Source of the DNA: Membranipora membranacea
Lineage: Eukaryota > Bryozoa > Gymnolaemata > Cheilostomatida > Membraniporidae
Direction of reading: 5' to 3'
Length of the DNA: 64,000 nt
Assembly: GCA_914767715.1 (NCBI GenBank)
Contig: OU612069.1
Span: 7,378,001 to 7,442,000 of the forward strand
Shown: piece by piece, positions 9,701 to 56,130 of the stretch
Layout: every line of letters starts with the position of its first letter
Position numbering within the stretch: position 1 is the first letter of the stretch
Translations under genes and position numbers: made by a program
Notes under the pieces: model-generated
What the model was told of the DNA's origin: nothing
What the model saw: only the letters and a program-made list of their open reading frames with translations
Database searches by the model: none

Positions 9701-12700
9701 TAAACGCTATATGTTAATGGGTATTGCATAACAAATTTGGCATTTGTCTCCTTAATGCCTTCTAAGTTTGGCTGTACATAGTGGAAGTTGATAGGTTCTC
9801 AAACTCATCCTGAGGGTAAACAATTCTCTAATTTTCTCATGGGAATTCATTTATATTTATTTACACACATACAAGTTGTAGTTATTTTCATTTGGATAAA
9901 AGAAGGAATTACTCCGAATGAAAATTGCTAGATTTTTGTACTGTTGTTTACAGCTGAAGGAGAGGGAAGTGCTCAACAGAAAATGATTGTCAGGACAAAG
10001 AAAACTAAGAGTAAGCTTTCTTCGCTACAGCATATTATTGGTTGCATTTTGCAAGTAGAAAATTTCAAATTTTCCCATGCCGATCTCCCCAGAAGTCAGT
10101 ATAAATCTGGTCCTCCTAGTTAGACTAAGAAGTGGATTAGACCATGACAGAGTTTTATCTGTTGTCATTGACTTGTTTTAATTGGAGAATTTCAGAGCAT
10201 TGCATTGTGGGATACTCTGTGATATGCCCATTGTTCACAGACCTTCCTGCTTTTTTTGGGAATTTCAAAAAATGTGTTATGGGATATTCTTAAAAACGCC
10301 CACGGATCATAAGCCCGCCCATTCTACTTGGGAATTCCAGGATGGTGCATCATGGGATATTCTTTGACATGCCCACAGTTTGCGTTATGGGATATTCTTT
10401 AATATGCCCTCTTATTGGTATCCTGTTTTGACGACACATAATCTGTACCAATCAATTTATAGAGAAGAAAAGAGTACAAAATAGCCGGAGAAATCTCCAG
10501 CGCTGTAAGGCTATAATTTCTGATATCAGTAGTGAAAACAACCGAGACGTTCATTATCAGGGTGAGTGTGAACCATAGACGTAGGCGTAGACTTGGACTT
10601 GGACTTGGACTTGGACTTGGACTTGGACTTGGACTTAGTATGAGATGTTACATGACTGCTGTTTTGAAGAGAAAAGCATATTGTTGTATCTTCAACTGTA
10701 AGATGTGTGTGTGTTCTTTTCACGGGTGTCAATCAGGACAGCCCAACCTGTAGTAGTATACACCAAGTTTGGTCCATTTGCGGGCGTGATCAGTTGAAGG
10801 AAGTAACTGGAATGCAGGCAATTGGATTAAACATGATCTAGTAGTAGTCGGACTATCTGGCGGAGCCCTTGCTTTTGCTTTGCTAACTTTTTGTTTTATT
10901 CAACATCTAAATTAATGGCATAAATATTCAAAAAGAGAAGAAAAAATGCTTTTTGGATATCGACAATGTCAGCTGACAGTTACTGATTGACTCCTTGCTT
11001 CTGTATTTTGTGCTGATTTGATCGTAAAATGAGTTTATATTACTATTGCCAATTCTTTTAGCTATTCATAGATGCCTTATTGGAGAGCGTCAATTTTTCT
11101 TTTTAAATACTGGTTGGACTGAGTGATTGTACTTTTCTATTTTAGACAAGGGGGATGGAGACCAGTATACACCACCAGGTCAGAGTACCAGTAGTAGAAT
11201 CTGCTCTGTGACTCCAAACCCATCTCACTCACTTAGTAAGTTAGTATCTAAATCTCTGGCACAGCAAGTCATACAAAGTGAAGATGGATCCTCTGGTGAC
11301 ATCAACCAATCATATGTCTACCCTGTAGCCGGCAGCCGATCAGATGACACCCCTGTAGCAGCAAACATTCCTCAGTATAAAGCCGAGAAAGATGTCAGCA
11401 CAGCCGAAGCTTCCCAACATTCATCTAATGAAGAGCTTTCTGTCTCAAGAAAAAGAAACCGTGTACTGCCATTTCCCTCATCTCAATCTGGCAGTGCTGT
11501 CTCTATTGATTATGGGGCTGCTGCAGCACAAGCTAAGCGTTCTGTTGATTATGAGACCGCAGTATCAGGTTCTCCAACACCTGCTCAATCAACCGATGAC
11601 GACTCAGTAGATGATGGAGTTGCTGTCCTCAGCGGAGCACCCTCTATTGACTACGGGGCAGGAGTCAAACCAGCCCTGACCCTCCCTTCGTCTCAGGCAG
11701 TTAGCTGTGCGTCTGTTGACTACGGAGCTGCGGAAGAACTTGTAGAGAGAGGCACAAAGAAGAAAATGACAGTCGGGGGTACAGCCAGCGATGTTTCTGA
11801 GGACCACAGTCGTGTTCCTGCAGATTCTTGTAGAGTGTTACCTGAGCCCAAAGTTGACTGCACTCCTATTTTGATAGGTCCTAATCTGGAGATTAATATC
11901 CCAGTGCCAGAAGCCCCAAAATCTAGAAAGAGAAAGAAATCAGTGCCCAGACAACAGAAGACACCCCGCCCAAGGAGGCAAGCTGCTGCTAAAGCTCTAC
12001 AAAGAATAAGTAGTGAGGTGAAGAACTATGAGGCTGTCAATAAAATGCCAGGCAGATCAGACAACTTACCTGATGTTGTGATACAGCATACAACACCTGT
12101 ACCTAACCTCTCATTTTCAGTAGCTCTAGCAGGTAGCACTGGGGGAAGACTGACACATTCCACTCCATGTCCCACGCTGGCTTTTAATGATGGCCTTAAA
12201 TCATCCAATAAGTCACCTGGGTTCACACCTATTGCTAAAAAGAAGCGCATATCCAACATCCAACCAAAAAATAAAAAGGTTTCTGAGCACAAGCAAGATC
12301 AGAATGAGCCTATACAACCACGTGAAAACACACAGCCAAGACGCTCATTCAGTCATGATAAAAGTATTGAGAGTGTCATTGGCTCAGTAACTTTACCATG
12401 GGAAGGTAGGAAAGTGTTCTCTCGAGTTAACCGCTCACAAAGCTCTCATAACTCGGTTAGATTAGCTACAAAAGAATCAACTGACCATGTTGTGGTTGAT
12501 AATGTGGAGAGCGAACGAATGAAGCCTATGCAGAAGCCCGTTGACATTGAAGGCACCTCACACTCTGGGCCTTCTCTGACCCTCAACTCTGTAATTAGTC
12601 GGCATCAAGAACCTGACGTCACACTGAAAGAAGGCGCAGCGGTCGGGTCTGCTGCACCTGATAACGATATGATTCTCGCTGAGAATAAAACAAATTTGGA

Positions 12701-15700
12701 AGTCAAAACCAAACCATTTACACCCAAACAGTTTCAGAAAACAGTCAGTATCGAGCTGGATGACAGCCCAAGTATAACCTGGGATCAACAGCGATCAGAT
12801 GAAATCAATGTTCAGGTTGACCCTGAGTCTGATGTTATGGGAAATCCCCTTTTTGAAAACCAAGGTGTAAGTGTAGCAACAAAAGGAACAACATCAAAAA
12901 TCATGAATTTAAAGAAGCCTGTTGCTAAGTCCGACAGTCCCCCAGCGGTTTATATACGAGATCAGGTATGTGATAAGTTTGCTGACGTGAGCTTGTCGCA
13001 ACAGATTGAAAGCTCCCCACAGGAACCTATTGATAGAAGACCCATCGTGAAACAGAACAAGCAAAAGATGAAAAAGAAGATCACAAAGAAAACATTTACT
13101 CTAAAGAAAATAGAGAATGATGAAGTTGTTACTAATAATTCACTAAATTCTAGTCGCATCAGGACAACCAGAAGAAGCCGATGGCGCAAAGTTTTGCCCT
13201 TACCAGTCGGTCCTGAGTCATCGATCCTGAGTGCAACAGAACCCGATCAAGTAACAACTAAGGTGATACCTGCTGATATTAGTCATAATGTCTCAAAGGG
13301 ACAAATGCATAAAATTGCTTCAGGCATAGGTCGTTCCATGTCGGCTGCGAATGAACAAGGTGATGTGGAGGATGAGAAAAGGCGATGCGACAGAGCTTCA
13401 CTTACAGCTGACATTGAAGTTACAGAAGTGAAGCACAGCCCTGGAGGTAATCAGAGTGTTCCTGGCATTAATCCCAGATATAAAGATGATGATCTAAATA
13501 TATCACCAGAAACTAGGCAAATATGTAACACCACATTTACCGTTTGTCGACTGGCTCATTCTAACAAGTCCTCTATATCTGTATATGAAGCAACGAGTGG
13601 TCAAGATAATTCAAGTAACTCAAACAACAAAACACCCAACTCCCCACTTCATGAATCTACTGCAGTGAAGACCTACAATAATGAACTACATGTTAGTGTG
13701 GAATCCTCATATACAGAGAGTCCAAGTGTGTCATTTATAAGTCAGAAGCGCTTGTCACGCAGTTCGCTGAACCTCTCTGGAGGTTCCATACGTCAGCCTT
13801 CTCCCTCAGAATCAGATGAGCCTGAGACCCATGTTTCCTTGGCAGCTAAAGAATCCCTCCTCTCTGAGAATGTACCGGCTATGGATAACACTGACGAGAT
13901 TATTGATGATATCATGAAGTCTTCTGATATGAACTCCATGGTTTATGATATGACCACTCTTCTGTCTGAACCTGGACAACCAGATCGGAGTCGATCCTTC
14001 CTCACCCCAACCGGAGACCCATCGGATCAGGTAGATCAGGGAAATGGTCAAGCAGACACGCGACCTCTAACACAATTAGTACCTGTAACCCCTTCCTCAC
14101 CTTTACTGATTAAAATGGCTCAACCTTCAAAAACTAGGAAAGTGAAACGAGCTGACCCTGTAATGGATGCAGAAAAAAGCATGCAATTAAATGCCAGTTT
14201 GGCAGTTACTGGTCATTCTAACAATATTGCCTCAGCACTCATCTCAAACAAAGCACATGACAATGATGTCAAACCCTCTAGTACAGCCCTACATCACAGT
14301 TCAGCTCATAGAAATCCATCAGAGAAGCTCTGTGCTGTATCAGATATTACACCAATAGACAACGATATTGTGCCAGAAACACAAAATGCTCCTCCTGTCG
14401 CTACAGTTATGAGCGATGATGAAACGAAGTTTGAAACTGTACCTGACACTCATCAGTCTACGCTGGAGACTGGCGGAGATGTTGAGGCTGAGGTGTCAAA
14501 AACACCATCACAAGTTCAGTGTGACAGCAATCATGTGACTAACAAAGAAAATGTGAATTCTCAGCCTATTGAGGGTAATACTGACCCATCTCCAATCAGT
14601 GAGCGCCCTAAGCGCAGGAGACCTGCTATGAAAACCCGGACAAGAACACGATCAGAGCCTGCTAAACCAGCTACTACAACAAGAGCAGAAAGTAAGCGAA
14701 CGAGGAGCCTATCAGAGCCACAACCCAGAGCACCTGCTGGTGATGGTGATGAGGAAATCATAAGTGTGTCGACAAAACCTAGAGTATCATTTGCTGACAT
14801 AGTGAAGTATGCCATGACGCCCCGCTCTAGAGGTAAAGCTATAGTAGCTATGTTTGACACGCCCGAGCCAAGTAGTGCCATCACACCTAAGTCTATACTG
14901 AAGTCAACTGGATCAACTCCAAGTAAAGAGTTACATGCAACCAGCTTTGATTGCTACAATGCTGTGGCCAGAGAGATAACTCCCAAGGCCATGCCAGCCA
15001 GTGATGGTTTGGTAAAGGAGACTAGAGATGAAGTATCATGCAATTCAGATGACACTACAGTGAAGGCCCATCGTATAGCAGCTGTCACAACAGGGAAGGC
15101 CCATAATATAGCAGATGACACCACTACAGTGAAGGCCCATAATATAGTGGATGACACTACAGTGAATTTCTGTAACCCATGTCCGACTCAACATGAAAAC
15201 AGCAACAGCAGTCACTTCATGTTCATTCATCCACCTGTTGAGGTGAGTGATCAGAATGATTTAATCTAATTTTGGTTATGGCGGACCATAAATTGAATTT
15301 CTTATGTTTTATTGAATTCTGTGTCTTGTTGTCATCGACGTTTAACTATTTCCAAACAGAAATGATGATTAATGAGGGACTATCAGAATATGCCCCAATG
15401 ATAGCTCACAGTTACAGATAAAAAGACACATACAACGAATAATTGCGTAAAGTAACAAGGTCTGTCATCAATATACTGCTATGGGATTTGAGCCCATTGC
15501 TTCAAACACTTGCGAGTTGCCCTAACCGTCAGAGCTACACTGCCTTTTGTTCTATTGTGTTGGAGGTACTGTCTTGAAGCCCTTCTGATTTGCAAGCATT
15601 CATCTGAACAATCACAAATTCGACAAGCTGACACGAAATCATTTCAAGTTCTTTCTCTTTGCTGCAGACAAAACCGAAGACTAAAAACAGGCGCAATAAG

Positions 15701-18700
15701 AGCATTGTCCATGATGTCTCCTCAGCCTTTGATGAGTTTGATAATAAGCTGAGAAACTTTCTACTTGATGAATCTATAAATGAGAATAAGAGAACTACCA
15801 CACCTACGTCTCACCCTCATACACCCGGTAACTATACCTACATCTCAAAATCCCACAACCGCTAGTTGATTGTTTTTATATGTGTCGATGAAGCGGGCAT
15901 TGATTTTAGGAGATATCTGCTCACAAACGACAATTAATATTAATGTTTACTTGCTGCATTGCCTGCTTGGTAAGTTGTATAAGTAAATCGAATATAAGAT
16001 AAATTGACTAACTGGAGGAATACAAGGTGGCTTGTACATGTTAATATGCCAAATGTGTAAGAAGGTGAATTCGTGACATGGATAGAGTGTTTCTGTGATT
16101 TTATTCATACTGATACCTTGACTCAGCAGAGAATGATGAGATGAGAGGTGGTAGTGACGGAGGATTGTTCTTCAGTCGACGGAGAAAAGAAAGAATCTCC
16201 AGATACAGCCTTCTATCAACATGTCACGGCAAGTTCAAGTCTGTCTGTACCAGACAATCTCTAAATACCAAAACCCCACAACAAAAACCAGCGCGTAAGT
16301 TGATAGTTTATTCTTGCAAGGATAGAAAGGAGATGAAATATTAGATGCCCAACCTTTTTGGCTTCCTGCTTCAAGATGTTTTTATTTGTACTGTTTTGGG
16401 TTATATTTGTCAAGTGACCGTTCATATAGAATGAGCAAGATTTTCCGAACAAAGTCCCAAAAATATATGCGCTCAGGATTATCGCTATCTGTTATTGCTT
16501 CATGATGTTAGATGTTATCTTTACCGCACGTTGGGCTCACATTTTGACAGCAGGGACTTTGAATTAATATCATTGAGATCGTTTCTTGCAACTGGGTTCA
16601 ACTCTTTCCTAGTCATTTGCTCGGAATATATTTTGGAGCTGAGTGATTTGGAAACAATACCTCTAGCAGCTCTCTGTCATCTAAGCAATGAACAACTGCA
16701 GGATCTCGATCCATTAAGCTCCCCACTTAAGATACAACTACATCATGCAGCCGCTGCTGTATCGTCTAAACTCTTCTTTACAGTGACGCTGAGTTCATCT
16801 CTGGGTAAAATAAGATCCAGATCAGCATCAATACCTCCGAGTAAGTCAAACTCTAACTCCATCACCGCAACACCTCACAAACCTAGAGTGACTGTCTCCA
16901 AAACACGGAAATCTAGAGCTGACACTACAACACGAGGAAAGAGTAGTTCTGCAATAAATGCCAAATCTCTCAAGTATACTGGGCTGGCTCCTTCTGTGTC
17001 CGCCAAGTAAGTATCTCAGCTGTGTTAGCTATCAAATTGTCGACATAGAGAAGAGAAAGGGAAGTGACTATTTCGGCATGGTTATTCTCAACCTCTTCAG
17101 CATCATCAAACTAAATTTCTTGTTTAGTTGCTGTTTTTCCTAATGTGTGCAGATATTTGCTTGACCCCCTATCAACTAAACAGAATATGAAACTTTTCTT
17201 GTATGTTTCGATGTAATAGGCTTTTATCCAATACATAAATGCCACTACCATCACACTGGCATAGTCTGAGCATCCTATTAGCCGGTGAACAAGTCCGCAG
17301 GGGCAACTCCAAATACCGACAAAAATATCAGAGTTAATATCTAAGGTCTCCTTTAAGGTACTCCTTTTTTGTGTGGGTATATCTTAGCGAGATTTTGCTA
17401 TATGAATTTGGTTGACTATAGAATGCAACTGCCAGCTACTCAGGTAGAGTTTCAGTACCTAAACCTTTGCCCCTTTGTTTTCTGCATTTCTTGGACAGCA
17501 TTTCACTCTTGAAATAAATCAAAGGTAATAAAATAATAGAAAGCACTAATAAAATATAATATAATAATAAAATAAATATTAATAAGTTATTTTTAAATCA
17601 AAGGATGAGACACAGCGCCGGAGGAGATGACCCATACAATATGAGCAGTGATAGTTCACTGATAGGGCAGGATACAGACACACTTAGACGTCAGTGTTTC
17701 TCTGGTGTAGATAGAGCTCATATACAGAGTGACCTTCAGATGACCTCGTCACTACTAGACATTAGTATTATATCGTCTGTAGAGAGCGAGCAATCTTATA
17801 CTGATACACTCACAGCTCCTACTTATTTATATCATCAGGTATAATATGATCCTTTAAATCAGGGAGAATTGAAGGGGGAGGAACTTGCACTCCATGGGCC
17901 ACGCCATGATCTAACTTTTGTTTTTGAGTTATGCCCCTTCGATTCTTCCTGTTTAAATGTACCAAATAAGTCCCTCATCATTACAGGAGAGGAAGATTTA
18001 CCATAGGTCTAGAGGAGTTAGTTTCTTTGCAGGAGAAAAAAATTCACGCTTGAAAAAGCAGAATCTGTGGTTATCTTGCATTAAGGCGGTTATGTGAACC
18101 CCTACCTTAACTCGCGAAGAATTTGTGCTTGCTAACATCTAGTCAATCCAAGACTAGCTAATATTTACAACTCTAGGGTGGTACTCTACTATTTGAGATT
18201 TACCATAGTCTGGATTTTGTTCATGCTTACATATTTTCAGCAACAAATCCTCCCTTGAATCGGACAACGAGACTTACAATATAAAGTAATAGATTCTAGT
18301 CTGCTTTGTGTCCCCTTAAATCATGAAGATGGTAAGAGTATGGGCGAGATACAGAAGTCATGTTGTCTAATCATAACATAATTGAATTGATTGCCACAGT
18401 GGGATTTTCTTGGTTACCTGCCACTAAACTTCTCTCCAATGCAGAGAGGTTTGTCCCATCTAGAGTCTTGTGCTGGAAGCCATAATACTCATACAACACC
18501 CAGCTTCTCGGATTCCCGGATACGCTGGCTTGTTAGAGTTTTAAGGCCAAAATCACAATCTGATTGTTCACTCAATGAATGAGCGATATCTGTTACGTTC
18601 TTTCTCAGAAATTGCTCCCTCATTGTTGGAACTATATACATTCTGAGTGAGCGAATTTAGGAGGGATTTTGTAGAATTGAAAGACCAAGTAAGTGCTACT

Positions 18701-28443: not shown

Positions 28444-28526
28444 TTATGTATGTGTGACAGTCCACTTATAATACTCAGCAGACTGGACTACACGCCCCCC
28501 TCGTTTTATCTCTCTGACTTCTTTCT
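28444..28526 (-). CDS. Roco-caspase terminal exon
   Basis: Acceptor tttttttctacttgtag; enters in phase 1, matching the exon above. Encodes KEVREIKRGGRVVQSAEYYK and a short tail to the stop TAA at 28,446-28,444. It lies after the caspase fold as a short basic tail. A possible minus-strand AATAAA is at about 27,663-27,658, inside the convergent gene's 3' UTR. Confidence 0.7.
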
Positions 28527-31500
28527 CTACAAGTAGAAAAAAATCTGATTACAACAGATAGAGATTATTAAATTAGCAGATCAATTCTACTGACAGCATT
28601 CAGGATTATTTTGGATATAATTATATACATTATGAAATTATCGTCAGATGCCCTGCTCATCCATAATAATATCTTTAACTTGCCTCATTTATAGTACTAG
28701 TACATGAGTCAAAAATACAGTATCATATAAGCATCCAAATAAGAGGAGTGAGCTTACCTAGAAGTGGTTCAATCCTAGTAACCACCTGGTTTGGCACATT
28801 CGCAAACATCTCAGGTGAGTTCTGAATTTGGACTCCAGGTAGCAGATACAGTTTTCTCAGATTAGTGAATGTGCAGACAGTTTTAGGCATCTGAGAGACA
28901 TAAGAGGCAGCAGTGGGAGCTGCAGCAGCACCTCTGTTCAGGTTCTGATCTGTTCTCTCCACTCCATATCTTGTCACTGATTCTCTTACCTGCAATTTTG
29001 ATGGTTGAAAATGGTAATGCATCATCTGTAAGAGTTTGAATGACTTCATGATTGGTTAAATGATTTCAGAGAGTGTAAGGTTGAATTATATTTATGAAAT
29101 ATTAGAGGTGAGAATGACTCCGATCAAGAGATTTACTTCAATTGATGCATCAGTAGTTTAGAGTAAGTTGGGTTAGTCAGTTGCATTTATAGGCACTTAA
29201 CCGTTTGTGTCCATGAAGAAATATCTCAATATAACAAGGAGCTTATGCAAGACTTACTATTTCAGCCAGAGATACAACATCATGCCTATGTCCCAGGGTG
29301 TAAAAGGTCGCCACCAAAGCCCTGATGAAGGGTGATCCAACGCCAGGGTTCCTTGGTGCAGCAAAAGCTACAATAGAAATTACTCTATGATACATAACAA
29401 ATCCATTGACCCATTAATACCTAAGGTGGCTGTAGTTCTGCTGTAATTTTATTATGGAAGAATTCTTGAAATAATCTTCAAATGATAATACGAGGGATAG
29501 TCCCCTCTAGTGCGATGGAATCATGACTGTACTGTACTGACTGTACTGTACAACCCCAAACAACTGCCACTTCTAAACTTATATTGCTGTTTAAGCTGAA
29601 TTTTTCTGCTGTTGAATACTCACAATCAAAGCTGGACTGCATAATGATCATATCTGATACAGATATGTCTTGTGTATCATTGTCCACTTCAAAGTCATTA
29701 GAACTCGGCATTGTCACAACTTGAGTGCTGCTATCAGTTTGGGGAGCTCTAACAGCTGCTGTTCCAGTAGTGAGGTCGTCTCTCAACATTTCCCGATTAC
29801 CTTTTTGAAAAAACGCGGATATGATCATCAGCTGCAAGACTAAGTAGATATGCTATAAGCCTGTACTGTATTGTATCAATTTCTTGATTTTATAAGCTAA
29901 CTGTCTTGTTGTTTATGTCCTTTCAGTTTCAACTTCAGACATAATGTTATAAGCTACATTCTACTTAAAAACAAAATCTGGAGTTGCTGCCTGATATTAT
30001 TTCTCATTCAAGTTTAACAATACTTACTGCCAGCACATGCTTGTATGATCACAATCTTTGGTCGGCCTCTCATCACCGAGAAGTTCTTAGGAGAGAGTAG
30101 ATTGTAAATATCCGTTAGTCTGATGAAGACTCTGTCAGAGCCAATAATACAGCCCTCGTCTCCATGACTGGTCAGAACGAGTACAAACGCCCCCATATGC
30201 TTGTGTACTGATTGACCGACTTGATCTGTTAACTGTGTCTCGCAGTGTATGGCTTCGATGATTTCCTAGTAAAAAAAAACTTACGTAAGTCCTCCATAAA
30301 AGGTTTAGTTTCTCAAATTATTGACTGAGATAGTTTACTGCATTGATGTCATAGAGCAGTTACCCTGGAGCGTGGTCTGATATTGTCAAGGAGGGATGAT
30401 TCTAAAGCCTGGTCATTCGTCACAATCAGTCGTACATGTAAACAATTCACAGATTGTAAATGTTCAGCTTACCCTTGCAGTGTAGGTTTTGTGTTCACCT
30501 ACAGTAACAAACCCTAGTTTGTCAAGCATACACTTGATATTCTGATAGTCATGTTCAGAACCACTCCTTGTCTGGTTGTAGTCGTTAGAGACAATCAGAG
30601 CACGTCCTCGGCATTCTGTCATCTGGTAAACAGTCTGAAAATAATCAGAAAACGAAGCCTTGATTATATTTGAACTATTTTGTTGCCTCATAAGCTTTAA
30701 GATCTGAGAATTGTACCAAGGAACTTCCGAACCACAGCTGTAATTATTCACTTCATAGACACAGCCTTCTAAGTTTGTGTGAAGACATGAAAATATCGAT
30801 CAAAATCATAACAAAGTAGCAGCTTTATAAACCTGGCTTTCAGGGATTAAACTCTGATCTGCTTGTTGTGGTTCCATATCTATCTGGGGTTGCCTTCTTT
30901 TCATGATCTCCACTACATCCTGAACTTCGGACATCTGGATCTCTGGTATGCTCTGGCCAGGATCATCTGCTGTGAGAACAGGAGGAGGGTCAGGTTTCAC
31001 ATAGTGCTTATTAGAATTTGAATTTTCTCTGCCTGTTTTCTTTTTACCGTAGAAACCAAGTTTCGCATGATTAATTCAGTAAAAGAGAGCTGTTGACTGA
31101 CCTGATCCCGCAGTTGTCTCCTCCCTTCTTATGTAGTCATCAAGAATTCTGACTCCCTCCTCACTGATCTTAAGACCTGTTTGAAACAACAGCAAAAATG
31201 GCAAGGTTAGCACCCCTATTGAAACAATCACTTGGTTAACATGCAATCCCGAAAATTAATGCTACAAATGGTAACAAATGAATTAATCGGATCTGCTGAG
31301 GCAGATAATGATATTTTTCCATGAACTTACATGGATATCTGAGAGGTAGCGGGACACGCCTCCTCCCATCGTTGGTGTCACATGGACAAGTCTCCTCTCC
31401 AGTGTAGGTGGTATGACGGGGCTCTGGCAGTTTGTATCTGACACGCCTGTTGAACCACTCAGGATTGACAAATGTTGCTGGTGATGACTGTTTGGTCAGT

Positions 31501-34500
31501 AGGCAATGAGAGCAGTAGAAGACATGGTCATATCGAACTCCTTTCCACACAGAATCCAATTCAGATGTAAGCCGCTTCATTGTTTCTAGTTGGGTCTTCC
31601 AAGCATCGCTGATAAGCCTGGCCGGTGTTTGCGTGATGAGTGTCACTTGTTTTTCTTTCTCATTATGCAATAGATACCGCAAGACTCCGTTCATCTCTTG
31701 CACACTCGCTCCATTTATACCAGCTTCAGGTGTGTTGAATGGATTGACGCATATGTCTAGAAATCTTGCAGTGATTACATGATATACATATTGCGGAACG
31801 TTGAGGCCGTTCAGATACAGATCGACTCTCAGCTGAAGGTGATTTGTGCCTTCTGTTGGGTTTGGTATGTTCTTAGTGCTGAAGTAGGGAACGATGAACT
31901 TCTCACTGCCATCACTTTCTATAGGTCCACAGATCAGGTGAAATGTTTTCAGCAGCGTGATACCAACATCAACAGGTAGTTCCGATTCATTGCTGAGCAG
32001 ATTGTGAAGTAATGCAGCTCTTATGATTCCTGTGGCTTTGAAATCATTGACCATGCTGACATACTCTCTTCTGTCCACAGGTCTTTCCTTATATCTGTAG
32101 GGTCTAAATTTGGTTATGCGATATTCCCATGCTTGAGCATCTGCATGATCGTAAAGTGTCCTTATGACATCAGCAAGAACTGAAGGGCGATGGAATAAAT
32201 AGTCACTCAGCTTCTCAACGTCCTGAAACCACATTATTCTTCCTGCTTCTTTGACGTACTGCAAAGCATGCTCACTGTGCTTACTGAAACCTTGTATGAA
32301 GTCAGTAACAGAAACATAAGGCTTTTGCTCTTCAGCAGTAAGCTTATTCAGCACTTCATACCAACTACCGGGTATATCAGTGATCAGCTTAGCCCCTGCT
32401 TCCTTCAGTGCACTCTTTAGTGATTTGATATCCATCTTGCTCGATGAAGCCGAGAGCTCTAGTATTGTTGTGATCAGGGGCTGTGCTCTGTCGATGAAAC
32501 ATGTCATAGAGAAAAATGAGCTGTCAGGCATAGCAACACCCTCTTCTGATTGAATTACATCTAAACGCAGCTTCTCTGTTGCTGATAAAAGCTGTTTCTT
32601 CCTCAGTTTGAGGGTCTCGTTGCTAAGCAAATCACCATGAGTCAGTACGAGCACTGGTCTTCCTAGGTTTGGTTGTGATGTATATAGGTGCGCTATCCAC
32701 TGGAAGCATACATCCTGAGCTGCAGCCTCTACTCCATGCGCATGTACTAAACTGTCAAACTCTGCTATATCTACCACTAGAAGTGGTACAGATTGTACTT
32801 TGGCGTTCACTTGGTAGGCAAGGTGATACACCTCATGCCCTCCCAAATCAGTGAATACCAACTTCAATTTCTCATCAATGTCAGCCTCGCATACATTGAA
32901 GACACGTGTTGCCTCATCAAGCTTGATGTCGATATCGGAACGGGTTGTCAGCACACGCTGATCCTTCTGTACGCTCCTCACAATGCTTGTCTTTCCTGCT
33001 TTAGTCTTGCCTATGACTGTTACCGGAAGGAGTCTGAAAATGTTTTCTTTTTCAGCATGAAGATCATGCAGATACTTCCTTACAGCTTCTATACCCTGTA
33101 TGCAGACAGCATAGGGAGGAGATACTAGTGCTTCGCAGTTGTCACATTCGAAGGTCTTTAGCGTGCTGATATTGAAGATACTTTCGGGTATAGAGGAGAG
33201 TGATCTGTTTCCGCTAATATGAAGTCCTTCCAGTTTGGTGAGTTGTCCCAGGCTGCATGAAAAAATAAAAATATATTTACTTTTAATCATAATGAGCGTT
33301 GCCGACATGGGGATGAACTTTCAATCATGACTAGACAAGTGCAAGGTACAATGAGTGGTATGGTGGGTTGGCCAATGTTGCACAAGAAGATACAAATGTG
33401 TTTAAATTCAAAATTGATGCCATATTGCATAAACAACTTCCCAGCAGTGTCGAACAGGTCCTGGCATATTTGAAATTTGGGGAAATTGGCGCAGTCATTG
33501 CAGTCTCGCCCTCAAGGCACACACTATTTCACCGCCACGATGTGGTGAGTGACAAACACTTGTGATTTTATCCAAAATTTTTTAAGCCAACTAATGACTG
33601 AGTACTAAATTGTGAGTTTGTTACTCGCAGCAGGGCCAAATGATAGCAAGTATCACAACACCCGCTATCCCAACAAATTAAAGAAAAAGTTTACTTTCAT
33701 TTCCTTTTCGATGAAATGCAATGTTATGTAGAATAATAAGTCATTCTTTCGTTTGTTATTTATCACTTCTGTTGTGACAGCCCATGACCACCCTATTAAT
33801 TTGATCAAAATTGTAGCGCTGATTGTTTTTCATTCTTTTGCTAATCTGCTAACCAATTTCAACATAAGACCACCTCCAGTATGCAGTGAATTTATTACTT
33901 TGTGAGGCCTTATGCTGTTCTCTAGGCTTTGGGAGTCAAGGTTCAACCCTGAACCCCGTATCGGGGGGTTGTGGGGGGGGGCTTACAGCGCTTTTCCCAA
34001 AGCTGAGAATAATTGATATGACACTGCGCTGCACAGGATACTCAATGATGGCAGGTTCACATTCATCATTGAACTTGGGAAATTTTAAGTTCGATAGGCC
34101 ACATAATCGTGAAAACACCGTCATTTCGCTCTATTTTTCAGTAACAAAGTTTTCTTATTCAATGGTAATCGGCTACATTTAGTTATTTTTACAGGATAAT
34201 ACACCCTTGGCATCGTAACTTTTAACATAATATTACTTGATAGAGTTAAAAGTCTCAGATTATCACTATCAAAAAACTTGTCTTCTTGAGTTACTGTACA
34301 AATTATTTTATTTTAAATTGAGGAGGACTAATAAATTTGCTAAATATAGTCTCATCATAATGCATTTTCGTTCTGGTCGATTTTCTTGCTAATTGCCAAA
34401 AATAGATATAATTAATTAAATTAATATTATGCCTTATTGATAACTTCCCTCCTACTAGGAAAGGTTGCTCCAACATAATAAAATGATAATAATAATAATG

Positions 34501-43500: not shown

Positions 43501-46500
43501 TAGAAGTGCATTTTATTTGAGTTATCTGGTTAATAAAAGATAATGTTTTGCCAACATTTCATCATGTTTTATGAAATTCATGATTTTTTGCATTCATTTC
43601 GTGGATTAAATAGTAATTAAACCACCAAGCCTTAAGAATAACTTTCAATCATTTTAAGCTTATTCGCCTGTCAATAGACGTCCGTTGTCAAGGCGACCAC
43701 ATTATTTACCAGCCGTGCATTCAGGTGAATGTAATGGCACTTAAAATTATTTTTAGCAAATAATAGAGGCGATCAAGTCTGATGGAAACAGATTTACAAC
43801 AGCGATTCGAATAAACACATTAATCACAATTTTACCATGTTTGTTTTTGAGTAATGGCTGGTGACCTTGACTTCTTTGCTGCTGTCCTGTTATCATAACC
43901 TTGACGCCTAGAATTATATCTGTTAGCCACTTGTTAGGCGTGCTATTATTAAGGGGTCTAAAATTAACTCAAGCAGGTATGATCACGGCCAGGTTTTATT
44001 GAGTGCCTCTCCTTCAATAAATGCCTATAAATCATTTATTGAATTATTATCTTGGACGTGTATTAACCAGCGAATAAGCTTTTTGTGATGGTTTCTGCAT
44101 CAAATTTAAAAAGACGTAGGGGGAGATAAAGAGGAAACCATATAAGTCACTGAGAAGCAGAAATAACATCAAGTTGATAACAAGATGCTGCTGTGTGTTA
44201 AGCAATTTTGAAACTCGAAAACCGATCAAAATCGATTGGGTTTATAATTAAGTATGTGGGTGCAATTGATTGTGTTACAGAAAATAATAAAACATTGTTA
44301 CCATTATTTCAATTAAGGTGCAATAATCTAGTATTTACCCTAAACTATACAGCCTATATCTTGCTCATAGAACTGGTCACAGCATTAGAGTGTCACTATA
44401 CACACATTAGTAATATTTACTTCTAAACTTGTCTGTGATAATTTATAATCATTTAGTTGAGGGACAAAAAATCATGCTGCTAGATATTTTGTTATCCCTT
44501 GCGCATACAAATCTTCTGTAAATAAGTGTAGGTATGTATACTTTTAATCTTTACCAGTAGGGGATGATGTAATGAAGTCATTTGCCGAACAATCAAGTAG
44601 GCCTATTGAGATTTTCAATCTTGGTATATTTTTCCGTAAAGTAATTGTTATTATTATCATTACCTAACTAAGGATTTAATTACTTTTTTTCATAAGAATA
44701 ATACAGAATCTTCAAGTGGGAGATGTGGGATGGAAGTCAAAAGTATATTGATATAGAAAAACATATTATTGTAATAATTATGGTTATTAGAGTATTTTAA
44801 ACAATAGTAGGGCTTTTGGTTAGAAGATGTGTCTTTGCCCATTTAAGCCTGCGTTACAAGATTAAAAGTCCATTTTTCAACAGCACAATTGGAGCAATTG
44901 AATTTGTAAGAAGATAATTCCTAATTTAGCGATAATATGTTGGTGAAAACTTGTGAAACAGATAGTTGTGTGAACTTGATCAGTGCTACCAAAAAAATTA
45001 ATTTACTATTGTATCCATCGTATATATGTAGCAAATTGCTACATATTGAATTTAATTATTTTCAATAACTTGGAATATGAGCCTGTCTGCCAACATGTCT
45101 GACAAACAACAAAACTGTAAGTGCATGGTTGACAGGATACCCGACCGTCAGCCTGTTTCCATGCGGACACAGTGGGGGGAAAACCTGCACTGGACCGGTA
45201 TAGGAAGGGCAACTTGTTTTACAATTGGCCATTCATATTGGTCTATCTGTCCAGCTAAAACTGGTCGGATAGACCAAATTGAATGGCCAATTCTTTTCCG
45301 CTCAATGACCTCCTCCCACTTGCTCTAAATTAAGTTACATTGGCTGCAAAGCGATTTTGGACTGATCAATTTAACAATCCACCTGGGAAAGAGGTATGTG
45401 TTGGGTATACCATGAATTGGGTACATTTTTCTATAGAAACAGAGGGGCAACAAAAAATCACATAGTATACCACCTGTATTATTGAACCTTATGGGAACAG
45501 ACCTAAATTAGACCTATATGAACATGCATGCAATGGCTGGTTCATGCCACAAAGTTAAAATTAAAAAACCTCCCAATTCATCCTTATATTAACAAATAGG
45601 GTACTTATATGAACTTCTTGTGACACGCCTATTAAGACAAATATAGGGGAATGAGTGACAAAACAGCAGACCGATCAGATTAAACAATCCTTCATCTCTA
45701 GCCCACATTTTGTGAAACTCACTTCTCTTTGCAACCATTGATTTAAGTTTCATATATTGCCAATGCAGCGTCAAACGAACCAAGTCACAATTTATTGAAG
45801 CAGTCTTATAGAAACAAGTCTTTGATTTGGTCAATCACTTATTTTCTCTTGACATACTCATTTGGGAACAAAATACTGTAGCATGTCTAGCAATCATGTA
45901 TAAGGAGAACAAGTTGTGATACTGTTGAGATATTTGAATACTAGATGCAACAATTTACATACTTAGGCACCATTATTACCAACAAACTGGATTTTACTCT
46001 GAACACCTTGAAAACTACAGCGAAAGCTCGCCAAAGGCTACATATAATCGCCAAGCTATACCATCTCGGTGTCACTGAGAAACTAATAACGACCTGCTAC
46101 AAGTCCTTCATAGAGTCAGTAATCACCTACCACCTGGTTTTGCTATATAGTCATCTGAGCGCAGACTCTAAGAAAAAGTTAAAATCTGTGATAAGAACTG
46201 CATGTTACCTATCAGGCGAACTTACGTTCACACCCGTAGACGACCTTTACTCTAATATACTGAAAGTAAAGAGCCTCCGTATGATTGCCACCGAAGATGA
46301 ACCACTACTCCGTCTTAACCAGCTGCCGTCAGGCAGATATCAATCAGTCAAGTTCCGCGTGCAGATCCGTGCCAAATGTTTTAGAGCAGAATGTATCAAA
46401 TACCTAAATAGTGTCTTCCAAAAGTAATTGTATTTTTTTTATGGTCTTATCATTTTATTTATTTTTACAGAATCAACAGTTTTAACAATTTTTACAGAGC

Positions 46501-49500
46501 ACCCTACAGAGACAGTTTTATTTCTCAGAGATTGAGACCAAAGATAAACATACATACATAAAAATGACAAAAAGAGAAGGTAAATTTAATTTTAAAATGT
46601 CCAGTTATGTCTTTTCTCTTGACATGAGAGCTCCAATTCGGTGTCGATCAGTGAAACTTAATAGATGACCAATTTTGAAATTTGTGCATGATAAATATTG
46701 CTAATATTGTTAAATTGTTAATATCGAATCGTAATATAATTGCATATGTATGTGCTTTCATTTTCCTTGCGCCTAATTAAATTGATGAGGCACCGACTAA
46801 ATTATTTGCACTGAAGACCAGAGTTCCCAATTTTAAGTTTTCAAAGGAAAGTTAGTGTAATGGGGTCAGACCAATGTTGTCCTGACCTCTTTTAGAGCCG
46901 CTGTAGGGAAGTGCATCTTTTTTACTGAAAGGTACTACTGTTACAAGCATCTGACTCACATTCACGTTAGTTTCAGATATCAATAGGTATATCTAGTGAT
47001 GCAAGTTGCATGATTCAGATGTGAAACCCAATCTATAATTGCTGACTAGAAATATAGACTTAATATGTAAATATAAATGCTTAACTAAACTTTCTTTCTA
47101 GTGATGCAATTTATCAATCCATAGTGACTTTTCAATCCATCCATAATAAAATGTGGAATATTCATTAGCCTTAGCTTCTGACTGGTATAATTGTGATGCA
47201 TTGACACTCGATGCATCAAAGACAGATGTTATGACAGTCTCCTATTTAGGAGTAATTTTAGATAAAAATATGACTTTAAATCCCATGTCAATGAGATTAA
47301 ACAAAACCTAACCCAGTCATAGCAAACTTTAAGAGAAGTCACCATACTCAGAGGGAACAAACTAATTGTACAAAAAGTCTGATATACAAGCATCTGACTC
47401 ACCTGTCTGGAAGGCCAGTTAATCCACAGTAAATGGCATCTATACTCTTCAATGATTGAATTTCCCCCAATCTCGCAGGTAATGTCTGTAGTCCCCAATT
47501 CACACCAACCTCTAACGACTCCAGTCTTGGCAGTTTGCAGATGCTGTGGTGGATAAATAACAGAATGTTAAAATGCCTTGCAATACTGGTTGTTAGTTGA
47601 TGGAGCAAAGACAATTGAGCAAACGCATTCTATTAATAGGAGGGAGTTTTAGATTGATCAATTACCCATGTAAGTTGTAACTATCAGATAGATATCTGAA
47701 TTAAATTTACAGCGCTTCTCCCAAAGCTGAGATTAATTGGTATGACATTGCGCTGCACAGGATAGTCAATAATGGCAGGTTCACATTCAAAAGCTAGAAG
47801 TCCCCCCCTGTTTAGGGAGCCCTAATCTGAGCAGCCCTGATTGTCACAATGATCAACATGGAAAATGAATTATGGTGATCTATTAATAATATTAGTAAAA
47901 TTCGTAATTGAAAGATCATTGGGGAACCTGAGGAAATTTTAAGTTTCATAGGCCACATAATCATAAAGACAGCGTCATTTCGCTCTATTTTTCAGTAACA
48001 AAGCTTTCTTATTCAATGGTAATCGGCTACATTAAGATATATTTACAGGATCATACACCTGTCGCATCGTAACTTTTAACATAATATTACTTGATAGAGT
48101 TGAAAGTCTCAGATTATCACTATCAAAAAAACTTCTCTCATTGACCAAATGTACAATTGATTTTTATTTTAAATTGGTACAGAGTTGATTTATTATTACA
48201 TGAGGTGATGAGGACTAATTAATTTGCTAAATATAGTCTCATCATACTGCATTTTTGTTCTGGTCGATTTTCTTGCTAATTGTCAAAAATTAATATAATA
48301 ATATAATTAATTAAATTAATATTATGCCTTATTGATAACTTCTCTCATACCAGGAAAGGTTGCTCCAACATAATAAAATGATAATAATAATGGAAATTTA
48401 GATAGTTATAATAATGATATATGTTTGTATTATGCACACATATTATTGGACTAATAAGTATTGCCCCTCATGTGAATGGAAGAAGACAACTCAATTGAGC
48501 AATCAAGATGTAAGGTCATTGATACAATATCTGATAGTTATTTTGTATCAAGTTTGCCCTGTGTACTTAACAAAGTTAGAAAAGGTTACAGTCCAGTAGA
48601 CCTAGGATAGGCAAGATGTATTCCATCCCACAGAAAGCTAAGTAAAGTAGATATTTTATGTCAGCTTGGAAAAGCTCCGTTGGGGTATGTACTGAAATGC
48701 CGATAAACTGAAAACCCAACATTAGGAGCATAGAGCACCATTGAAAAGTGCTGCTTTGCACCCTCAAGGATTATTACTTTCCCTAGATTTTTTATAGATC
48801 AGTTTTGGAGAATTGGCACCGGTATTGTGATATTTCAGACAGTATATATGACACATAATATTATATCAAACCTAATTTCAATTCGGTAAATTGCAATTCA
48901 AATCTGTATGCAGCATCAATTTGAAGAGTATAAAGGTATAAGATCATTTGCTGGTGTCTTGCTGAACATCGTTCCAGCTATGCATCTTCCAAAATACTAT
49001 TTCCAAGGTGGTATAGAAACATTGCGGCAGCAGAACTCATATCCCATTACACTCATGCTATTTGTTGAGAGGACAATCCAATGCTCTAATATTATTGGAA
49101 TGAAAAGTATCACCATTATGATGAGAGAAAGCACTGAACGTTGTGACAGTTTTATGAAAACACATTACCACAATGCATCTCATTTTGAACATTATCGGTG
49201 GCTATAAGGTGGTTGTCACATCATTATATAACAAACTTCATGAGATGATCATAAAATAATGCTGTAGTGATGGAAGAACTGTGATGCTATAACATTGTTA
49301 ACATTGAATACTTTTTGATAGCATGATCATAACATCATGAAAGTGCTAATTATAAGCTGTATTCTCACATTTAACAGTGATGTATCATTATGTCAAAAAT
49401 AATGGTTGACTAATACTAAGAACCAAAAATTCTGCTATATCTGAATCTGAACATTGTGATTACCATTCTGTATCTTTTTAGACAATAACCCAATCCTATC

Positions 49501-55500: not shown

Positions 55501-56130
55501 TATAAATCCAACCTGAAAATATTGATTCGGAATACAAAATATATATTTTATGTTATTGTTATACAAAACAATTCTATATTTAGTACAATCATTTAATATA
55601 TATATGGAATTTTTACAAAACAAACTTAGCTGTATATTCATGACACCTTCCTTCCTGATACAGAAATTCATTGTGATTGATAAGGTTTTTTTATAATTTA
55701 ATGTATTATTATTCAATTTTAATTGTATTAAAAATCAAGATTTTCCGATACCTTTTTTATATCAGCATAAAGGTCAGATTTATGGATTTCCGAATATAAA
55801 TATCAATTGAAGTTAGCAGAAACCGAGGAGTTTTTACAGCAAGATGTCTCATCTGCTTCCTTTATGGCTGATGTAAAACTTTGCAAAAGTATGGTCTCAT
55901 CTGTAAATAATGAAGGGAAATTACTCAGAAAAACACAACCCTATTGTACAAAAGGTCCGATATATTACTGTTGCAAGCATCTGACCCACCTGTCTGGAAG
56001 GCTGGTCAAGCCACAGCTCCAAGCCACTATACTCTTCAATGATTGAATTTCCCCCAATTTTGCAGGTAATGTCTGTAGATCCTCATTCCCAGTAACATCT
56101 AACGACTCCAGTCCTGGCAGATTGCAGATG
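28444..56130 (-). CDS. LRR-Roc-COR-caspase fusion gene (gene-level entry; 5' end beyond window)
   Basis: Twelve visible exons in transcript order: 56,130-55,990; 47,543-47,403; 33,252-31,331; 31,176-31,102; 31,032-30,833; 30,634-30,473; 30,408-30,364; 30,265-30,028; 29,800-29,624; 29,367-29,258; 28,989-28,758; 28,526-28,444. Every junction keeps phase, giving about 1,175 codons to a stop. Domain order: LRRs, Roc GTPase (P-loop GKTKAGKTS, G3 DLGGHE, G4 THGD), COR with a CSHC/CPC cysteine cluster, a Pro/Gln/acidic linker, then a caspase domain with SHG and QACAG and a small subunit. LRR-Roc-COR modules are nucleotide-switched scaffolds (the Roco family, which includes LRRK and DAPK proteins); caspases cleave after aspartate in apoptosis and inflammation. 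The fusion implies that LRR sensing and GTP state control protease activation, which is inference. The introns separating Roc-COR from caspase are short (about 55-200 nt), and I saw no polyadenylation signal between them, which argues against two genes. Confidence 0.88.
28758..28989 (-). CDS. Roco-caspase exon: end of caspase small subunit
   Basis: Acceptor aaaattgcag, donor gtaagc; phase 0 to phase 1. VRESVTRYGVERTD is followed by an Ala-rich insert, then MPKTVCTFTNLRKLYLLPG. The latter matches the typical caspase C-terminal pattern (mp-x-sTLrk-lyl-P). Confidence 0.85.
29258..29367 (-). CDS. Roco-caspase exon: caspase small-subunit core
   Basis: Acceptor tttctattgtag, donor gtaagt; phase 1 to phase 0. 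Encodes FAAPRNPGVGSPFIRALVAT and continues to HDVVSLAEI. It matches the substrate-groove segment of caspases (S-x-RN-x3-GS-x-FI-x-x-L) followed by the helix before the last strand. The Arg of the RNP stretch sits where caspases carry the S1/S3-contact arginine. Confidence 0.88.
29624..29800 (-). CDS. Roco-caspase exon: inter-subunit linker and start of small subunit
   Basis: Acceptor ttcaaaaag, donor gtgagt; phase 1 to phase 1. Completes QACAGS, then a T/S-rich linker with several Asp residues (NDFEVDNDTQDISVSD), suitable for Asp-directed autoprocessing. It ends with SDMIIMQSSFD, the small-subunit strand pattern (aD-lia-ST-xGy). Confidence 0.85.
30028..30265 (-). CDS. Roco-caspase exon: catalytic His and Cys of the caspase large subunit
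   Basis: Acceptor tttttttttactag, donor gtaagt; phase 0 to phase 1. Contains GAFVLVLTSHGDEGCIIGSD with the catalytic histidine in SHG, and RGRPKIVIIQACAG with the catalytic cysteine in QACAG. Caspases usually read QACRG, but QACxG is the family rule. All residues needed for a cysteine-histidine dyad are present, so an active protease is likely. Confidence 0.92.
30364..30408 (-). CDS. Roco-caspase 45-nt microexon in the large subunit
   Basis: Acceptor gaccag (weak pyrimidine tract), donor gtaact; phase 0 on both sides. Encodes ALESSLLDNIRPRSR. It fills the helix between the TYTA motif and the strand leading to SHG. It could be skipped in frame, which would probably disrupt the fold. Confidence 0.65.
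30473..30634 (-). CDS. Roco-caspase exon: start of caspase large subunit
   Basis: Acceptor ctgattattttcag, donor gtaagc; phase 0 on both sides. Encodes YQMTECRGRALIVSNDYNQ, then RSGSEHDYQNIKCMLDKLGF. It matches the caspase opening (Y-x-M...RG-alIInn-F...R-x-G...D...l...l-lGF). Confidence 0.88.
30833..31032 (-). CDS. Roco-caspase exon: Pro/Gln/acidic linker
   Basis: Acceptor gaaaacag, donor gtttat; phase 1 to phase 0. Encodes a disordered link rich in N, P, D, Q and E (KPDPPPVLTADDPGQSIPEI). It contains TADD and acidic-Asp sites that could be caspase cleavage points releasing the protease from the Roco scaffold (inference). Confidence 0.75.
31102..31176 (-). CDS. Roco-caspase exon: short helical link after COR
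   Basis: Acceptor tttcaaacag, donor gtcagt; phase 1 to phase 1; 75 nt. Encodes LKISEEGVRILDDYIRREE, a charged helix directly after the COR C-terminus. Confidence 0.78.
31331..33252 (-). CDS. Roco-caspase exon: last LRR, Roc GTPase and COR domain
   Basis: Acceptor tttttcatgcag, donor gtaagt; phase 2 to phase 1; about 640 codons. Residues 1-45 (exon numbering) are one to two LRRs (LTKLEGLHISGNRSLSSIPE). Roc domain about 75-280: P-loop GKTKAGKTS (81-89), G3 DLGGHE (135-140), G4 THGD (204-207, cf. THLD in LRRK2). COR about 300-640, including an SSFFSMTCFID region, many aromatic residues and a winged-helix-like centre. Near the C-terminus YCSHCLL (31,502-31,516) and CPCD (about 31,375-31,390) form a possible zinc-binding cluster. 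P-loop Lys and Thr are intact, so nucleotide binding is expected. Confidence 0.93.
33253..33680. other. Start of the giant LRR intron
   Basis: Directly upstream of the Roc exon on its coding strand. A plus-strand open frame (about 33,368-33,545, ending at a consensus gtgagt donor) is present but unsupported; it could be chance or a gene fragment. Confidence 0.35.
33680..34135. repeat. Segmental duplicate R1, copy 1
   Basis: Closely matches about 63,085-63,550 (offset about 29.4 kb) including a poly-G tract and the run cagtatgcagt-aatttattactttg. Part of it also occurs at 47,705-47,830. Confidence 0.85.
34083..36720. repeat. Segmental duplicate R2, copy 1
   Basis: Collinear with about 47,935-50,600; part (35.44-35.86 kb) also with 42,575-43,010. 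Many indels and substitutions, no conserved coding frame (for example, the frame from 36,229 is broken in the sister copy). Confidence 0.85.
36204..38815. repeat. Unit bounded by about 185-bp inverted repeats, copy 1
   Basis: The left arm (36,204-36,390; attataaacctagac, then cactatatgg and cgatcaattttgatcgg) recurs inverted at 38,640-38,815. The interior has no transposase-like frame. The same arms bound 50,175-52,309. It may be an old non-autonomous transposon or foldback element carried along by the duplications. Confidence 0.7.
36730..39660. repeat. Segmental duplicate R3, copy 1
   Basis: Collinear blocks recur at about 43,003-45,120, 50,870-53,140 and 57,480-59,180. Marker strings shared by the copies include gtgcccagagggcctcattg, gaacccaccatac and gagcctgtctgccaacatg. 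Confidence 0.85.
40490..41270. repeat. Segmental duplicate R4, copy 1
   Basis: Matches 60,520-60,900 and, for its second half, 61,880-62,215 (taagcctgcatgac, gagcc-gcctgcca). Confidence 0.8.
41430..42540. repeat. Segmental duplicate R5, copies 1 and 2
   Basis: Two consecutive diverged copies of a block also found at about 45,125-45,945, 53,330-54,660, 59,380-60,260 and 62,270-62,830. Shared strings include gacaacctgtactgga-like, ttgaatggccaat and gggaaagaggtatgtgtt. Confidence 0.75.
42575..45120. repeat. Segmental duplicates R2 (partial) and R3, copy 2
   Basis: An abbreviated version of 35.4-39.6 kb, with internal deletions that remove most of the inverted-repeat-bounded unit (both arms missing or truncated). 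Confidence 0.75.
45125..45945. repeat. Segmental duplicate R5, copy 3 (5' flank of the LINE insertion)
   Basis: Runs collinearly with 53.35-54.67 kb, with gaps, up to ctagatgca at 45,949, where the LINE fragment interrupts it. Confidence 0.75.
45950..46556 (+). mobile_element. 5'-truncated LINE insertion (RT C-terminal end and 3' tail)
   Basis: An uninterrupted frame of about 158 codons (stop 46,425-46,427) starts with FTYLGTIITNKLDFTLNT and ends with LNQLPSGRYQ, RAKCF and YLNSVFQK. It matches the end of non-LTR retrotransposon ORF2 in L2/CR1-like lineages (YLG; Y-x-SFIES; LPSGR; final ai-x-LN). The catalytic palm and the endonuclease are missing, so it is inactive. The 3' UTR is about 130 nt and ends in short acat repeats. 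The empty site is seen in the sister duplicates at 54,661, 62,830 and 60,262, where ctagatgca- or tgca-like sequence runs straight into taaaaatgaca. The intact frame suggests a fairly recent insertion. Confidence 0.85.
46557..47402. repeat. Segmental duplicate R6, copy 1
   Basis: Collinear with 54,666-55,260 and partly with 60,265-60,480 and 63,690-63,850. It contains a relic string (caagcatctgactcac at about 46,947) matching the intron side of the LRR exon donor. Confidence 0.75.
47403..47543 (-). CDS. Roco-caspase LRR exon, copy 1 (two LRRs)
   Basis: Acceptor ccaccacag, donor gtgagt; 141 nt, phase 2 on both sides. Encodes ICKLPRLESLEVGVNWGLQT, LPARLGEIQSLKSIDA and CGLTGLPD: two 23-25-residue leucine-rich repeats. 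It splices in phase to the Roc exon (AG plus C gives Ser, leading into LGQLTKLEGL) across an intron of about 14 kb, and accepts the upstream LRR exon. Confidence 0.88.
47705..50600. repeat. Segmental duplicates R1 (partial) and R2, second copy
   Basis: Collinear with 33.99-36.6 kb. Begins with the cttctcccaaagctgag / cactgcgctgcacagg block and continues with the full R2 series of shared strings. Confidence 0.85.
50175..52309. repeat. Unit bounded by inverted repeats, copy 2
   Basis: Left arm from gattataaacctagac at 50,175; right arm ends with ctaggtttataatt at about 52,309, its reverse complement. Shorter than copy 1 because of internal deletions. Confidence 0.65.
50870..53140. repeat. Segmental duplicate R3, copy 3
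   Basis: Collinear with 36.75-39.65 kb, with its own insertions (50.6-50.8 kb is unmatched in copy 1). Confidence 0.8.
53330..54665. repeat. Segmental duplicate R5, copy 4 (LINE empty site at its end)
   Basis: Long version of the R5 block. At 54,661-54,680 it reads directly from ctagatgca into taaaaatgaca without the LINE. Confidence 0.8.
55417..55452. repeat. A/T dinucleotide tract
   Basis: tatt-tatataatata-type simple sequence flanked by AT-rich unique sequence (55.4-55.8 kb) absent from the other R6 copy. Confidence 0.75.
55990..56130 (-). CDS. Roco-caspase LRR exon, copy 2 (two LRRs)
   Basis: Acceptor ccaccacag, donor gtgggt; 141 nt, phase 2 on both sides. Encodes ICNLPGLESLDVTGNEDLQT, LPAKLGEIQSLKSIVA and CGLTSLPD. 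Same length as copy 1, no stop or indel, and mostly substitutions at solvent-type LRR positions (VGVNWG versus VTGNED). It is the most upstream exon visible; the gene continues beyond the window. Confidence 0.85.

Follow-up and report, generated by a model that had tools for sequence, protein, structure and literature searches.

Can a GTPase switch and the protease that it would control reside in a single animal protein? This question is raised by a locus of the cheilostome bryozoan Membranipora membranacea, which we analyzed within a stretch of 64,000 nucleotides (hereafter, the window) of contig OU612069.1 (C5 below; assembly GCA_914767715.1, positions 7,378,001 to 7,442,000; coordinates below are those of the window unless a genomic location is given). 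A first-pass annotation, made from the sequence alone, had described here a Roco GTPase, that is, a Roc domain followed by a COR domain, fused to a complete caspase. The Roco-caspase fusion is supported by sequence and fold comparisons, by its recurrence in another bryozoan and by the presence of a caspase downstream of 114 of the 134 Roc-COR loci that we detected in the genome; what the annotation missed are the upstream leucine-rich repeat (LRR) exons, the expansion of the family and the hypervariable LRR face.

Gene structure and domain architecture

The annotated model (positions 28,444-33,252, minus strand) consists of nine exons with a frame that is continuous across all junctions. The encoded protein runs from the last part of an LRR domain through Roc and COR to a caspase in which the His/Cys dyad is intact and a small subunit is present (Table 1). 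The joined frame and the splice sites thus bear out the phase-consistent gene that had been proposed, which turns out to be larger than reported: at least four exons encoding pairs of LRRs were found upstream of the Roc exon, two inside the window and two past its end, so that the gene extends over approximately 62 kb, measured between its stop codon and the most distant LRR exon detected (C5:7468730). Each of the LRR-pair exons in the window is 141 bases long; the two are 75% identical, and the donor of the one closer to Roc can splice in frame onto the Roc exon (AG plus C, yielding Ser). Strand, phase and the Watersipora subatra proteins discussed below suggest that splicing joins the LRR-pair exons to Roc. 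Past the window end, a degenerate LRR exon with a stop (locus L009, 1103-1165) is flanked by intact LRR exons.

Table 1. Exons and diagnostic motifs of the Roco-caspase gene in the window
Feature	Position	Strand	Remarks
LRR-pair exon (two LRRs)	55990..56130	-	phase 2 in, 2 out; ends derived from flanks, AG/GT
LRR-pair exon (two LRRs)	47403..47543	-	phase 2 in, 2 out; ends derived from flanks
Exon 1	31331..33252	-	LRR domain end, Roc GTPase, COR
P-loop (G1) GKTKAGKTS	32985..33011	-	residue 81
Switch II (G3) DLGGHE	32832..32849	-	residue 135
Exon 2	31102..31176	-	linker after COR; W. subatra proteins align across junction
Exon 3	30833..30969	-	linker; linker pN/pS 0.28
Exon 4	30473..30634	-	caspase large subunit start; S1-pocket Arg motif RSGSEHD
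Exon 5	30028..30265	-	caspase core; catalytic His codon 30164-30166, Cys of QACAG codon 30035-30037
Exon 6	29624..29800	-	intersubunit linker, candidate self-cleavage site FEVD|N, then small subunit start
Exon 7	29258..29367	-	small subunit; second S1 Arg (APRNPGVGSPF)
Exon 8	28758..28989	-	small subunit end; acceptor revised from 29025
Exon 9	28444..28526	-	C-terminal tail, TAA stop

The profile search suggested in the first-pass annotation identified Roc (PF08477, E 3.3e-6, above the cut-off), with COR directly C-terminal of it, and Peptidase_C14 (PF00656) at the C-terminus; the best fold matches of exon 1 are LRRK1 and LRRK2. The Peptidase_C14 match covers Pfam positions 1-204 of 233 in the window protein and reaches position 233 in relatives, and both the large and the small caspase subunits are present. 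In sequence and fold, this domain resembles the animal caspases CED-3 and caspases-1, -2, -3 and -8, with which it shares the catalytic dyad (His and Cys in SHG and QACAG) and the S1-pocket arginines for Asp at P1 (in RSGSEHD and APRN); the FEVDN linker site is found in the window copy and in 12 of 12 closely related paralogs. In the window protein, the C-terminus of which is complete to the stop, neither a kinase nor a death domain was matched by Pfam at E up to 1, and at the same threshold there was no NACHT or NB-ARC match in the part of the protein at hand, its N-terminus being incomplete.

The family in a second bryozoan

The same architecture, for which the first-pass annotation had proposed a search of invertebrate proteomes, was found in Watersipora subatra, a cheilostome of a different suborder, where 14 protein models (P0017, P0018, P0028-P0036 and P0042-P0044) carry PF00656 together with similarity to Roco proteins, which argues against two neighbouring genes. 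The P-loop was located in 11 of these, whereas P0032, P0035 and P0042 begin inside or at Roc. Two models, P0017 (32% identity) and P0018 (28%), align with 95% of the window protein, and their alignments cross the junction between COR and the linker. All 14 contain [S/C/T]HG and QACSG as well as the first S1 arginine; the second S1 motif was located in 12, with Lys in two of those 12. The predicted N-termini of P0017 (MGAKSS) and P0029 (MGCSLS) resemble what we take to be myristoylation signals, which would put some of the receptors at membranes.

Among the 26, 10 and 30 matches obtained in protein databases, the named homologues are all from W. subatra and the remainder are metagenome fragments. 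Because these searches depend on 5-residue words in common and were limited to 7997, 1144 and 7993 scored candidates, they do not establish absence from other phyla. One fragment (P0002, 99% identical, from an ENA contig of 5122 bases) perhaps represents bryozoan DNA in an environmental sample. The rarity attributed to the fusion therefore holds outside bryozoans, within the reach of protein searches, but not inside the Membranipora genome, where the fusion is usual.

Expansion in the Membranipora genome

Two genome searches for Roc-COR, which scored 69 out of 539 and 74 out of 229 initial candidates, merged into 134 separate loci, a lower bound that includes a few partial matches (e.g. C9:609724, residues 1-281 only); 68 of the 69 and 72 of the 74 scored matches are free of stops. 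At 114 of the 134 loci, a same-strand caspase place follows within 6 kb downstream (69 with a canonical caspase only, 43 with a divergent class only and 2 with both); the 6 kb upstream contain one, on either strand, at 0 of the 134. Because of this association, the predicted Roco-caspase fusion is the usual state among the Roco genes scored in this genome.

The divergent class was recognized in two sampled loci, on C3 at 14.20 Mb and 25.87 Mb, both of which contain a domain that has SHG, either QACQG or QACQP, and a stretch resembling a small subunit (Peptidase_C14 scores 1.8e-14 and 6.5e-12); that at 14.20 Mb is weakly similar to caspase-8 (E 2.7e-4). An assignment of 44 of 69 Roc-COR loci as caspase-free had to be rejected, given that both loci sampled carry the divergent caspase; with canonical caspases and the best 55 of 150 divergent places combined, 68 of the 69 loci of the first search bear a caspase, and the figure of 114 of 134 results from both searches taken together with all 150 divergent places.

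Examination of fetched stretches that include several kb upstream of caspase places (L011-L032) showed Roc, COR and caspase on one strand in 20 of 22; the exceptions are L023, with no match to the queries, and L027, with a caspase only, the Roc-COR place lying 2.8 kb outside the stretch. Shorter stretches, extending 1.5 kb to either side of the match, contained COR and caspase in L003, L004 and L006, caspase only in L001, L002, L005 and L007, and neither in L008.

On C5, between 4.1 and 7.7 Mb, 19 scored Roco loci form a single array; canonical (13) and divergent (6) caspases are intermixed along it, and one of the six divergent caspase exons has a stop. When the best 150 of 1394 candidate LRR exons in the genome were scored, 104 mapped to this array; all 104 are assignable by strand and position to a downstream Roco locus, with 1 to 11 exons per gene, 102 are open, and the distance between the Roc-COR match end and the farthest exon of each locus is 17-173 kb.

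Diversification of the LRR face

In the first cluster examined, comprising the window copy and 12 near-identical paralogs of the C5 array, Roc, COR and caspase occur in order in all 12 paralogs, and the covered exons contain no internal stops. Exons wholly within the fetched stretches align without gaps; three copies are represented by all nine exons, and the others are cut at the stretch ends. The ratio of nonsynonymous to synonymous differences per site (pN/pS; Nei-Gojobori, uncorrected, summed over pairs) across the 13 copies is 2.02 in the LRR end (residues 1-74) and below 0.6 in the other parts of the protein (Roc 0.33, COR 0.57, linker 0.28, caspase 0.36). Within residues 1-42, all 10 x positions of the LxxLxLxxN pattern are variable, versus 6 of 32 other positions (Fisher p 5e-6), a test that is partly post hoc because the x positions were chosen after the first alignment had been seen.

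These positions, taken from the general LRR pattern, were left unchanged in a second cluster on C3 (22.8-23.6 Mb), the 11 copies of which share 57-59% identity with the window (two of them apparently identical in the stretch inspected), where again 10 of 10 x positions vary, versus 10 of 32 others (p 1e-4); here pN/pS is 1.0 for residues 1-42, approximately 1.5 for the x positions, 0.92 for residues 43-74 and 0.25 for Roc (residues 75-216). The same pattern was applied to 44 of the 104 LRR exons of the C5 array; in the 40 with 48 residues (four with 47 residues were excluded), pN/pS is 1.95 at x positions and 0.47 at the rest. As judged from these alignments, the changes in the LRRs are located on the predicted concave face, whereas conservation prevails in the switch and in the protease. 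A single stretch (L016, C5 5293000-5302500) contains a Roc exon without the AG acceptor and DLGGHE, and is possibly defective.

Proposed function and alternatives

The architecture, expansion and diversification evident in these sequences suggest, with a probability that we put at roughly 0.6, that the LRR-Roc-COR-caspase protein is a single-chain member of a large family of bryozoan intracellular receptors, in which recognition by the LRRs would lead to Roco dimerisation, self-activation of the caspase and cell death. The hypervariable concave face would bind a variable ligand, putatively a microbial product or a marker of self/non-self, such that the predicted trigger may be either microbial or allogeneic. 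Ligand binding would alter the nucleotide cycle and the oligomeric state of Roc-COR, by analogy with CtRoco and LRRK2, in which the nucleotide state is coupled to oligomerisation (see the review PMC6337361). Pairing of two Roc-COR modules would then bring two C-terminal caspases together, which would become active by proximity in the manner of initiator caspases; these would cut their own intersubunit linkers, probably after FEVD, and the active caspase would cleave cellular substrates and thus kill or alarm the cell. The view of the first-pass annotation that the switch would be its own executioner is the best reading, drawing on what is known of the respective families.

Several observations weigh against this proposal. 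The N-terminus of the window gene is incomplete, no start codon having been found in the 20 kb past the window end that were scanned (L009 and L010). No caspase place was detected near 20 of the 134 Roc-COR loci, some of which may have an unscored one because the caspase lists are incomplete (the best 140 of 515 canonical and 150 of 236 divergent candidates); conversely, 168 of 282 caspase places lack a listed Roc-COR, with 114 of the 282 having one upstream. In the second cluster, pN/pS of residues 1-42 does not exceed 1 and other positions vary too; all the ratios are uncorrected proportions over non-independent pairs, and gene conversion may bias them in C5, where introns are about as similar as exons. 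In the predicted structure of P0030, pLDDT is mostly below 55 beyond residue 1010, that is, in the small-subunit part, so that the fold search says little on this subunit. The Trp of the classical SWRN motif is replaced by Pro (APRN), suggesting that the substrate preference may differ. The few NACHT (1 place; 27 of 27 candidates scored) and CARD (9 places, two with stops; 17 of 17 scored) domains in the genome fit a system without NLRs and CARD adaptors; other lophotrochozoans, however, are also NLR-poor.

The locus might alternatively harbor two neighbouring genes that duplicate jointly, an MFHAS1-like LRR-Roc-COR gene and a caspase gene, given that the caspase could in principle begin at an internal Met and that the case for a single gene is built on sequence comparison. 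In-phase splicing and conserved linker exons contradict such an arrangement, as do the W. subatra single proteins that align through the COR-linker junction and the strictly downstream position of the caspases at the Roc-COR loci (114 versus 0 of 134 within 6 kb). Because a caspase accompanies most of the scored loci and fused models exist in W. subatra, two independent genes appear very unlikely. A scan for poly(A) signals (AATAAA or ATTAAA) is neutral in this respect: such signals are absent from the stretch linking the two parts, but equally from the 544 bases that follow the stop codon. It seems just as improbable that the array consists of segmental duplicates that encode no working product and either drift or are homogenised by gene conversion. 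The 95-99% identity of the C5 copies in Roc-COR, the comparable similarity of their introns and exons, the missing AG before the Roc exon of L016 and the degenerate LRR exon of L009 would be compatible with decay; the lack of internal stops in 12 of 12 copies, the purifying selection on Roc and caspase, the predominance of stop-free Roc-COR matches (68 of 69 and 72 of 74) and of open LRR exons (102 of 104), and the sharing of the family with W. subatra argue against it.

Less easily dismissed, even if we consider it unlikely, is a genuine fusion with a non-immune or non-lethal role, such as local proteolysis during development, with the LRRs reading endogenous partners. Caspases have established non-lethal roles, the death and immunity functions proposed here are predictions, and bryozoans regularly dismantle their zooids, the cyclic breakdown known as polypide regression. 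More than 130 loci and diversifying LRR faces are nevertheless typical of receptors whose targets vary, and not of those that read a single partner in development.

If the receptor function is accepted, a broader and more doubtful, albeit attractive, possibility is that bryozoans possess a large, germline-hypervariable intracellular repertoire of at least 134 Roc-COR loci, most of them (114 of 134) with their own death protease, that replaces expanded NLRs and adaptors. The four intact LRR-pair exons with inspected flanks are all of phase 2-2, and there are 1 to 11 exons per gene on C5, so that alternative splicing could also combine LRR modules somatically, providing combinatorial recognition, either of microbes or in colony fusion and rejection.

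Relationship to known systems

In the review cited above (PMC6337361), Roco proteins are sorted into three groups, namely LRR-Roc-COR alone, LRR-Roc-COR with a kinase, and DAPK1; the word caspase is absent from that review. Group 1 proteins (MFHAS1, CtRoco), as described there, share LRR-Roc-COR with the bryozoan protein and stop after COR, where here a caspase follows. Group 2 proteins (LRRK1, LRRK2) share the same core and have a kinase as the C-terminal effector instead of a caspase. DAPK1 is similar in that a Roco module is tied to cell death, which for the bryozoan protein is a prediction; its kinase precedes Roc-COR and a death domain is present (PMC6337361), whereas here LRRs come before Roc-COR and a protease after it.

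Animal caspases have CARD or DED before the protease, in contrast to LRR-Roc-COR here. The NLRs and inflammasomes are alike in combining a variable LRR sensor, a nucleotide switch and, as predicted here, a cell-death output; the bryozoan protein is not a member of the NLR family, as it contains a Roco GTPase instead of NACHT/NB-ARC and has the caspase in the same chain. What an NLR and an inflammasome caspase, or Apaf-1 and caspase-9, do together, the bryozoan protein would do in one chain, without a CARD or death-domain adaptor. Multidomain proteins of bacterial conflict systems feature caspase domains and, separately, modules of the GTPase-COR type (Kaur et al. 2020, PMC7159879), and no LRR-Roc-COR-caspase chain is described in the accessible part of that work. 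Proteins of the Roco-TIR type have been reported from the mollusc Aplysia (PMC9334734), so that outside this family, too, Roco modules are connected with immune domains. No published Roco-caspase fusion was found in the literature searched, which covered few subscription journals. Thus, known domains appear here in a new, strongly expanded architecture.

Other features of the window

Two open frames on the plus strand (11127-15266, 1380 codons, and 16435-17007, 191 codons) perhaps are exons of one low-complexity nuclear protein; they have no Pfam match at E up to 0.01 and contain RVSF, which we take to be a PP1-docking-like motif. Another plus-strand frame (45945-46424), also without a Pfam match at this threshold, presumably resembles the end of the reverse transcriptase of a non-LTR retrotransposon. 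On the minus strand, two pairs of short frames (36881-37129/42919-43137 and 53346-53573/59382-59603) share long near-identical stretches and are probably copies of interspersed repeats.

Implications

The architecture described here would be a fourth topology of Roco proteins and, to our knowledge, the first animal receptor family with sensor, GTPase switch and caspase in one chain. How dimerisation of Roc-COR is coupled to the effector is still debated for LRRK2 (PMC6337361); because caspase activation is a simple proximity readout, the bryozoan protein would allow a direct test of how this dimerisation drives an effector. A limited literature search found no paper on bryozoan immunity or colony recognition, and the family supplies candidate genes for both.

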